The notes under the pieces are model-generated. The model saw only the letters and a list, made by a program, of their open reading frames with translations, had not been told where the DNA came from and made no database searches. Below, in pieces: positions 21,732-23,265 of a stretch of 23,265 nt of DNA. Positions within the stretch are counted from its first letter, which is position 1, and each line of letters starts with the position of its first letter. The stretch is from a virus: the IMG/VR virus record IMGVR_UViG_3300042465_001674, positions 1 to 23,265 of that record; one strand, 5' to 3'. The translations under genes and the position numbers were made by a program.

Positions 21732-21783
21732 TTTAATTTCCTCAACTTTACTTGTTAGGTGGGGCTACTCGCTGCACTAACTT

Positions 21784-21813
21784 AGGGCAATCCTTGTATA
21801 TAAGGGCAATCCT
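21784..21813. repeat. Direct repeat of AGGGCAATCCT, 19-bp period
   Basis: Two exact 11-bp copies (21784-21794 and 21803-21813) are separated by eight bases, TGTATATA, in a gene-free gap of 115 bp (21732-21846) between the SSB-like and the Cys-rich genes. The 19-bp period puts them on nearly the same DNA face. It could be an iteron-like or regulator site, or part of the Cys-rich gene leader. Confidence 0.55.
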
Positions 21814-21846
21814 AGCTCGTTAGCATCCGCTTTCACCCCTTAATTA

Positions 21847-22452
21847 TTAAAAGGGAATATCGTCAGGCATGTCATTAGCTACAGGTGCTTCTTTAGCCTT
21901 TTGACCACGCCACTCAGATGATTCTGCAATCTTTTCCTTGTAATACTTAGGCAAAGCATCGTACTTAGATTGATCAAATTCATTTAACCAAAAATGCAAA
22001 GTAGGATTAACGCCTTCAGGCTGAACATTACGCAAAGCTGACGGTACTGGACTAATGCCTGAGATGTTAGCGTATTTGCCATCTTCGCTGTGCGTGATGT
22101 TTACCATGCAGAACTTACCCAACAAACCTTTAAGGTCAAAGTTTTTGCGATCTTCAGGGCTCATCTTTTTGTTTGACCATGATTCTAAGTCTTGCCTTAA
22201 ACGAGCCTGATCGCCTAAACTCACGGTATAGCGTTTGGACACGATTAAAGGCTTTCCATCGTCTGTTTTTAATGGTTGACCTGCATCATCGTCACCGTGT
22301 AGCTCCCAAGTAAATACAACTTTGTGCATGATCTTGGTTTCGCCAGCCCATTCTGTAGCCTGATGGCCAAGGTCAATAATTGAATACAAGCGAGCCATGT
22401 GTAGACCAGCTGGTGCGATTTTAAATTCTTTACTGTTATCTGAAATAATCAT
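21847..22452 (-). CDS. Single-stranded DNA-binding protein-like
   Basis: 201 residues, ATG 22452 overlapping the previous stop (ATGA). The N-terminal part is beta-rich with P-A-G-L-H-M-A-R-L-Y-S-I-I-D near residue 14 and W-E-L-H-G-D near residue 49, then K-R-Y-T-V-S at 73-78. A basic helix follows, and the protein ends in a flexible segment closed by D-M-P-D-D-I-P-F, the acidic Phe-ended tail that SSB proteins use to recruit partners. The DUF669-like fold of phage SSBs is a good match in size and order, but OB-fold detail cannot be confirmed by eye. It would coat ssDNA and may recruit the PD-(D/E)XK nuclease of the same operon. Confidence 0.7.
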   Translation of the reverse strand: MIISDNSKEFKIAPAGLHMARLYSIIDLGHQATEWAGETKIMHKVVFTWELHGDDDAGQPLKTDDGKPLIVSKRYTVSLGDQARLRQDLESWSNKKMSPEDRKNFDLKGLLGKFCMVNITHSEDGKYANISGISPVPSALRNVQPEGVNPTLHFWLNEFDQSKYDALPKYYKEKIAESSEWRGQKAKEAPVANDMPDDIPF

Positions 22453-22661: not shown

Positions 22662-22703
22662 AAGAGCTCCTTTACGGTTATCACGACATATTGCCGTAAT
22701 TGA

Positions 22704-22732
22704 ATATTAAGCCAACTTAAGCATCATGTCAA
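22704..22732 (-). promoter_or_regulatory. Leftward early promoter PL
   Basis: Minus strand: perfect -35 TTGACA (22732-22727), 17-bp spacer, -10 TAATAT (22709-22704). The word TTGTTGACAT covers the -35, exactly as in promoter P2. Operator O2 overlaps the -10 and spacer. The start would be near 22697, about 36 bases before the first gene. Confidence 0.75.
22707..22720. promoter_or_regulatory. Operator copy O2 (TTAAG-N4-CTTAA)
   Basis: TTAAG-CCAA-CTTAA, a perfect 5+5 dyad on the PL -10/spacer. Its centre lies 55 bp from that of O3, on the other side of the divergent region. Confidence 0.75.
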
Positions 22733-22739
22733 CAATTAT

Positions 22740-22768
22740 TTGCAATTATTTTGTAAATAAGTTAAGAT
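22740..22768 (+). promoter_or_regulatory. Rightward promoter PR of the Cro-like gene
   Basis: -35 TTGCAA (22740-22745), 17-bp spacer, -10 TAAGAT (22763-22768). The predicted start falls on or within a few bases of the ATG at 22778, and no SD is present. The transcript should thus be leaderless or nearly so. O3 overlaps the -10. Confidence 0.6.
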
Positions 22769-22775
22769 AGCTTAT
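22762..22775. promoter_or_regulatory. Operator copy O3 (TTAAG-N4-CTTAT)
   Basis: TTAAG-ATAG-CTTAT, one mismatch from the consensus dyad. It covers the PR -10 and ends 2 bases before the repressor ATG, so binding would shut off the gene itself. Confidence 0.65.
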
Positions 22776-22777
22776 AT

Positions 22778-22999
22778 ATGAACGCAACTGCAATAATTAA
22801 ACTTTTAGGTGGGCCAACCCGTATATCCAAGCTAGTTGGGGTATCTGTACCAGCCGTGTCTATGTGGCAAAACAGTGAGATTCCAATGGATAAGCTGGTC
22901 ATGTTGGCAGCAACCCTAGAAAAAGAGAGTCATGGGCTAATTACCCGAAAAAGCCTGTTTCCAAATAATTTTCAAATGATATGGCCTGAACTGGAATAA
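22778..22999 (+). CDS. YdaS/Cro-like transcriptional repressor
   Basis: 73 residues. The N-terminus gives a helix-turn-helix of the YdaS/Cro group: L-L-G-G-P-T-R-I-S-K-L-V-G-V-S-V-P-A-V-S-M-W at residues 9-30. I-P-M-D-K-L and the ending W-P-E-L-E complete the family pattern (in homologs often I-W-P-E-L). The gene diverges from the leftward operon and lies behind a promoter with a matching operator, so autoregulation is likely. No SD is visible; a leaderless mRNA is expected. Whether it is the lytic Cro-type regulator or the only repressor cannot be decided; no integrase or second repressor lies in the window. Confidence 0.8.
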   Translation: MNATAIIKLLGGPTRISKLVGVSVPAVSMWQNSEIPMDKLVMLAATLEKESHGLITRKSLFPNNFQMIWPELE

Positions 23000-23004
23000 T
23001 CGTA

Positions 23005-23010
23005 TATAAT
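23005..23010 (+). promoter_or_regulatory. Perfect -10 box (TATAAT) of the structured RNA
   Basis: TATAAT in GTATATAATG, six bases after the repressor stop. No good -35 at 16-18 bp. The predicted start is near 23017, just before the first pairing arm. Confidence 0.55.
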
Positions 23011-23016
23011 GGCATC

Positions 23017-23265
23017 AAGCGGATTGAACCCTGCGATGTTTTATATACCAGCCTAGACCCTTTAGGGTTATTCTGAGCGTTTTTTAAAGGCTGGCTGGTC
23101 TTTTACAAAGCGGGTTCAACTTAGAATAACCTTAAAGGGTTTTTTCTTTTCTGCTTGGTCTTAATTGGGCGGGAACCGACACCAGCGATTAAGATACAAG
23201 AGCAACTGGGGGAAAGTTGATGCAAAAGCTCAAATATAGGTGGCGAAGTTAGTGCCTATTCAACG
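23017..23265 (+). ncRNA. Structured noncoding RNA with pseudoknot (partial, runs off window)
   Basis: This stretch has no credible gene. Stem C: 23057-23077 pairs with 23120-23140 over 21 consecutive positions (two G-T). Its 42-base loop contains GGCTGGT (23093-23099), which pairs with ACCAGCC (23047-23053), and GGGTTCAA (23112-23119), which pairs with TTGAACCC (23024-23031). Both partners lie upstream of stem C, so they cross it: a pseudoknot. A T-rich run follows. Further hairpins: 23160-23167/23186-23193 (8 bp), 23203-23207/23215-23219 (5 bp) and 23236-23242/23253-23259 (7 bp, two wobbles). The region is probably the 5' domain of a large phage RNA; alternatively stem C plus T-run is a terminator of a 130-nt RNA. 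Confidence 0.65.

Follow-up and report, generated by a model that had tools for sequence, protein, structure and literature searches.

The window, by which we mean the whole stretch of 23,265 bases analysed, is a single IMG/VR virus record. Its + strand carries tail, amidase and further structural genes, and its − strand an exonuclease-like gene plus other leftward genes. A gene for a Cro/CII-like HTH regulator of 73 aa (22778-22999, + strand; PHROG 35/8008/409 matches) is followed, 17 nt past its stop at 22999, by the onset of the structured RNA element described here. As the initial annotation had stated, no ORF covers this region, which dismisses a coding reading of the element. The TATAAT it had reported is present at 23005-23010 (+ strand) and is the −10 hexamer of the element's own promoter, with a predicted start site near 23017 that coincides with the start of the element. 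Past the element, at 23158-23265 (+ strand), lies a match to the Rfam family RF02932, Betaproteobacteria-1 RNA (72.2 bits, gathering threshold 49.4), which is cut by the contig end and is here called module M1. Two operator-like palindromes, TTAAG(N4)CTTA(A), occupy 22707-22720 and 22762-22774 in the divergent promoter region near cro. Elsewhere in the window, the noncoding gap at 21735-21850 (− strand) holds two direct copies of AGGATTGCCCT; its fold was no better than that of shuffles (z −0.75).

The largest part of the element is P2, a terminator-like helix whose 5′ arm ACCCTTTAGGGTTATTCTGAG (23057-23077) and 3′ arm CTTAGAATAACCTTAAAGGGT (23120-23140) pair without a break over 21 bp, just as first reported. 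Including its extension, the pairing run comprises 23 pairs (23055-23142) and is the longest among 579 contig windows of 134 nt, for which the median was 8. Both back-pairings of the loop were likewise found as described: the pseudoknot, or kissing, helix A-A′ joins strand A, TTGAACCC (23024-23031), to A′, GGGTTCAA (23112-23119), which adjoins the 3′ arm of P2, and P3 joins ACCAGCC (23047-23053) to GGCTGGT (23093-23099) within the apical loop of hairpin P4. P4 itself (23078-23112; 23078-23090 with 23100-23112) is one of two features absent from the initial annotation. The other is P0, in which the 5′ strand AAGCGGA (23017-23023) pairs with TCTGCTT (23150-23156) past the U-run TTTTTTCTTTT (23140-23150) at the base of P2, so that the element extends beyond the T-run to 23156. 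P0 is exclusive with the 5′ hairpin P1 (23019-23034; 23019-23022 with 23031-23034), which holds strand A in its loop. All of these features are on the + strand. The nested part of the fold was much more stable than the folds of shuffled sequences, with z = −4.38 for 23017-23150 and z = −3.99 for 23017-23156.

A blastn search with window positions 22700-23265 against GenBank phages gave no matches; relatives were obtained via homologues of the Cro-like protein, through which 80 IMG/VR loci were reached, and a further 80 loci were reached via the protein encoded at 21847-22452. The signature of the window's sequence type, class A, matched 97 IMG/VR stretches, and the collected loci held 83 distinct class-A elements. 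A Cro-like homologue was present <60 nt upstream of 55 of these 83; the Cro-like gene is the usual upstream neighbour of the element, and the carriers are hundreds of freshwater phages. No tyrosine integrase was found in the 15 records checked, and a scan of genome contigs for a host returned a binned MAG fragment as its sole match. At a number of loci (L050, L042, L048, L103, L119 and others), the space separating cro from the element promoter holds inserted cargo genes of variable kind; judged by eye only, they are glycosyltransferase-like or reductase-like.

Alignment of 34 class-A sequences (A1), using a model of P1, A, P2 and P4, demonstrated that the element is a real RNA structure. The predicted pairs were formed in 97.7% of the cells, 25 of the 44 pairs were compensated on both sides, and 0 of 500 shuffles equalled the real alignment; offsetting the pairing partners by 1-3 columns lowered pairing to 34-56%. 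By helix, 100% of the cells were paired in P1, 99.6% in A (6 of 7 pairs compensated), 96.6% in P2 (11 of 21) and 97.8% in P4 (7 of 12), and P0 reached 96.8% with compensatory changes in two pairs. P3, which MAFFT could not align, was assessed by exchanging its strands among the sequences; complementarity was 17.7 for true partners versus 10.3 (sd 2.3) for exchanged ones. A second alignment (A2) of 21 class C sequences, distinct in sequence from class A, supported helix A independently, with 100% pairing and 5 of 7 pairs compensated. The pseudoknot first proposed from a single sequence thus has strong support, as the helices all covary in two independent alignments, with P3 added by the swap test, and related phages display compensating changes, the opposite of the uncompensated ones that the initial annotation had named as evidence against it. 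The reverse complement folds well, too (z −4.0), yet conserved G-U pairs (columns 64-113 in 34/34 and 69-101 in 33/34 sequences of A1) fit the + strand only, and a minus-strand RNA was rejected.

TATAAT with at most one mismatch ended 4-7 nt upstream of the element in 74 of 81 elements. It was retained where another gene separates cro from the element (23 loci), as well as in 4 loci without cro, which points to a promoter that travels with the element irrespective of the preceding gene. The palindrome TTAAG(N4)CTTAA, a putative Cro operator, was found near the element promoter in none of 83 elements. In 61 of 68 loci it was located past the element, at a distance of 225-534 nt, together with a sequence resembling a promoter for the genes that follow; the TTAAG(N4)CTTA(A) motif of the divergent promoter region recurs in this position before the early genes past the RNA cassette.

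Downstream of Cro, one architecture is realized by several sequence classes, A (the window), B, C, D, E and F. Unrelated sequences also take on this layout in the circular genomes MW202520.1, MW202674.1 (which represents class F) and MW202753.1. An A-A′ helix of 7-10 bp occupies the equivalent position in representatives of classes B, D, E and F; it was read by eye in D_L009 and two E members, for which the automatic search chose other pairings. The P1/P0 arrangement returns in classes D and E with different sequences (GTCGAGATT/AATCTTGAC; TGTTTCGTCAG/CTGGCGAAACG). P0 is uncertain in class C, where some alleles fit (GGACTG/CAGTCC) and others do not, and it was not seen among the class B and F sequences inspected. 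The classes have the fold in common and almost no sequence, which makes a small-molecule or sequence-specific ligand unlikely. In Rfam 15, the element had no credible match up to an E value of 10, the only match being RF02932 beside it, and the other classes had none. A known Rfam family was rejected for the element, as nothing passed the gathering threshold; within the scope of Rfam, no described RNA family covers it. In MW202753.1 (L298 853-1284), the GenBank hypothetical protein UOF81610.1 overlies an element copy plus an M2-type module and is probably a miscalled gene, since the stretch reads as these two units.

The covariance-model match to RF02932 concerns the neighbouring module and not the element. 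A complete copy was found at L008 4381-4502; a literature search on Betaproteobacteria-1 RNA found no paper. RF02932 directly follows the element on its 3′ side in the window as well as in some of the relatives. It is a separate unit, as the element also precedes four other modules or a gene directly. Elements of class A or of other classes are followed by at least five exchangeable types of module, the further ones being M2-M5, without Rfam matches (L013 downstream of 4360; L062 after 1940; L167 after 6650; L125, reverse strand). M2 is a structured RNA with the compensated stems GTAG/CTAC, GTGA/TCAC and GCTG/CAGC. Modules reassort with the type of the element's 5′ strand, and the boundary of exchange is exactly the 3′ end of P0, the 3′ border of the element. 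The module is missing in L040. Class B has no module; there, SD and start codon follow directly after the U-run at a spacing of about 10-15 nt, and this gene must therefore be reached through the element.

A P2 base of CCC/GGG followed by T5-T7 was present in 82 of 83 class-A elements, with T5 required by the search pattern, and a U-run at the P2 base occurs in classes B-F as well. The G-C-closed helix followed directly by a U-run has the form of an intrinsic terminator; a terminator scan did not call the site, owing to its loop limit of 8 nt. The initial annotation had suggested that the stem could terminate transcription as long as the pseudoknot has not formed, which would make the element a switch. 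The terminator part fits the helix-plus-T-run kept in every class. For the switch, which is still conjecture, support comes from the staged folding of prefixes and from the two pairings of the 5′ strand, which exclude each other, and termination in the absence of the pseudoknot would be one model among several, because stem and pseudoknot need not be incompatible through shared bases. The first seven bases can pair locally in P1 or, in P0, with TC(T/C)GC(TT/C) past the U-run. Since both pairings are kept and modules are exchanged at the 3′ end of P0, selection appears to act on RNA that extends past the U-run.

Folding ever longer prefixes of 34 sequences yielded P1 in 29, then A in 33, then P2 in 33 and then P0 in 32, that is, the order P1, A-A′, P2 with P1 and finally P2 with P0. 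These folds were calculated by ViennaRNA with no pseudoknots allowed and show the locally favoured pairings at each stage, not a spatial exclusion of A and P2; the apparent exclusion is in part a modelling artefact. P3 is tethered to the P2 base by 1-6 nt, and its partner in the P4 loop is about 33 bp away. From this geometry we infer that P3 can hardly coexist with a straight P2-P4 stack, whereas a kinked stack could hold every helix simultaneously.

The elements also differ sharply between close relatives. The cro DNA of the window and of L002 is 95.4% identical, and their elements are only about 51% alike. In G002, two strain versions of one locus at contig ends share a module at 98% identity while their elements are 63% alike, each carrying its own matching P0. 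On a finer scale, the sole differences between L026 and L071 are two compensated pairs of A-A′, and between L045 and L051 there is one such pair. Nearest-neighbour comparisons counted 8 compensated and 0 one-sided changes in helix A versus 4 compensated and 18 one-sided changes in P2. Whole elements are swapped between close phages with the fold retained.

The combination of a pseudoknot beside an intrinsic-terminator-like stem with alternative pairings resembles pseudoknot transcriptional riboswitches and attenuators. Unlike a metabolite riboswitch, the element has no conserved ligand-binding core among the classes compared, which share architecture and not sequence; from class to class the sequence changes completely and the fold stays. 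GOLLD and ROOL, of unknown function, are likewise structured noncoding RNAs of phages (PMC12286853); they have about 660 to over 800 nt and often lie near tRNA islands. The element, for which neither appeared as an Rfam match, is far smaller.

Our preferred explanation, held tentatively and at somewhat less than even chances, is that the element is an RNA-only conditional terminator heading an early phage transcript. A constitutive-looking promoter without the repressor palindrome would start the RNA at about 23017, and the emerging RNA would pair in stages, P1 first and A-A′ (with P3) next as the loop strands appear. The long P2 helix with its U-run should then stop RNA polymerase, whereas in read-through molecules P0 would capture the 5′ end and displace P1. 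Transcription into the downstream module and the early genes would be set by how early pseudoknot pairing (A, P3) is balanced against the completion of P2. Termination, the regulation of read-through and its trigger are what we infer in this model, which is favoured by the terminator-like helix with its universal U-run, the promoter at the 5′ end, the strand competing with P1 and the class B gene. Against it speak the genes after the module, which in most classes have their own promoter and need no read-through, the patchy occurrence of P0 in classes B, C and F, and the negative terminator scan.

The strongest rival, which we regard as not very likely, is a stable, trans-acting noncoding RNA of two domains, with the element closed by P0 as the 5′ domain, one of M1-M5 as the second, and the U-run as a weak stop or linker. 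The covarying P0, in which the 5′ end is joined to sequence located past the U-run, would be expected of such a molecule, as would the nearly constant co-occurrence and reassortment of the element with a structured second module, the compensated stems of M2 and the listing of M1 by Rfam as an sRNA gene. However, a linker would not need the U-run that closes off a G-C rich helix and is kept across otherwise dissimilar classes; the module is absent in class B and lost in L040, and no terminator was recognised at the module end. Own promoter, compact fold and intrinsic-terminator-like 3′ end would equally suit a stand-alone, terminated sRNA of ~125 nt acting in trans on host or phage targets or proteins. 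We consider this quite unlikely: the covariation of the 5′ end with a strand past the U-run would be pointless if the RNAs always ended there, the variable loops are paired with each other and not free for targets, and the class B gene depends on read-through.

The put RNA of phage HK022 binds the zinc-binding domain of the RNA polymerase β′ subunit and suppresses termination. Like HK022 putL and putR, the element is a cis RNA that belongs to an early transcript of a phage and lies near cro, with a presumed protein-free effect on elongation. It is a single copy of ~125-140 nt with a kissing pseudoknot, a terminator-like helix and a U-run, and no sequence is conserved between its classes, unlike put RNAs. 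Put RNAs act without protein and have ~70 nt, two stem-loops and two sequence-related copies (PMC9378689). A search of the records for a second copy with the class-A model, which could miss other classes, found the element at one place per genome, G002 excepted; a nutL/nutR-like pair was rejected on the same count. A put-like processive antiterminator that modifies RNA polymerase to pass later terminators is thus very improbable, as the element, for all its location behind cro, close to the putR site of HK022, and its apparently RNA-only nature, has no left and right pair in the searched records, ends in its own U-run and lacks the sequence conservation of put.

The phages thus carry an abundant structured RNA without Rfam match, one class alone accounting for 97 IMG/VR stretches. 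Its most unusual trait is the allelic exchange, with unrelated elements of the same fold next to near-identical cro genes. This constitutes a natural experiment, in which one fold is built from several sequences that are unrelated and substitute for one another at a single locus, and both pseudoknot strands change in step. That the kissing strands form a rapidly switched RNA specificity code, an intramolecular lock and key re-keyed in step and compatible only with itself, is a rather unlikely reading, supported by the near-identical pairs L026/L071 and L045/L051, the change counts of helix A and the exchange of whole elements; such a code could keep co-infecting phages from mutual interference with their early RNAs, or evade RNA-directed defence, or else the strands of different copies might pair with one another, giving RNA oligomers. 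If the code is selected to change, RNA-level conflict between phages would become testable. If the conditional terminator controls early transcription, it would be a switch made of RNA alone and governed by folding order, not by a ligand.
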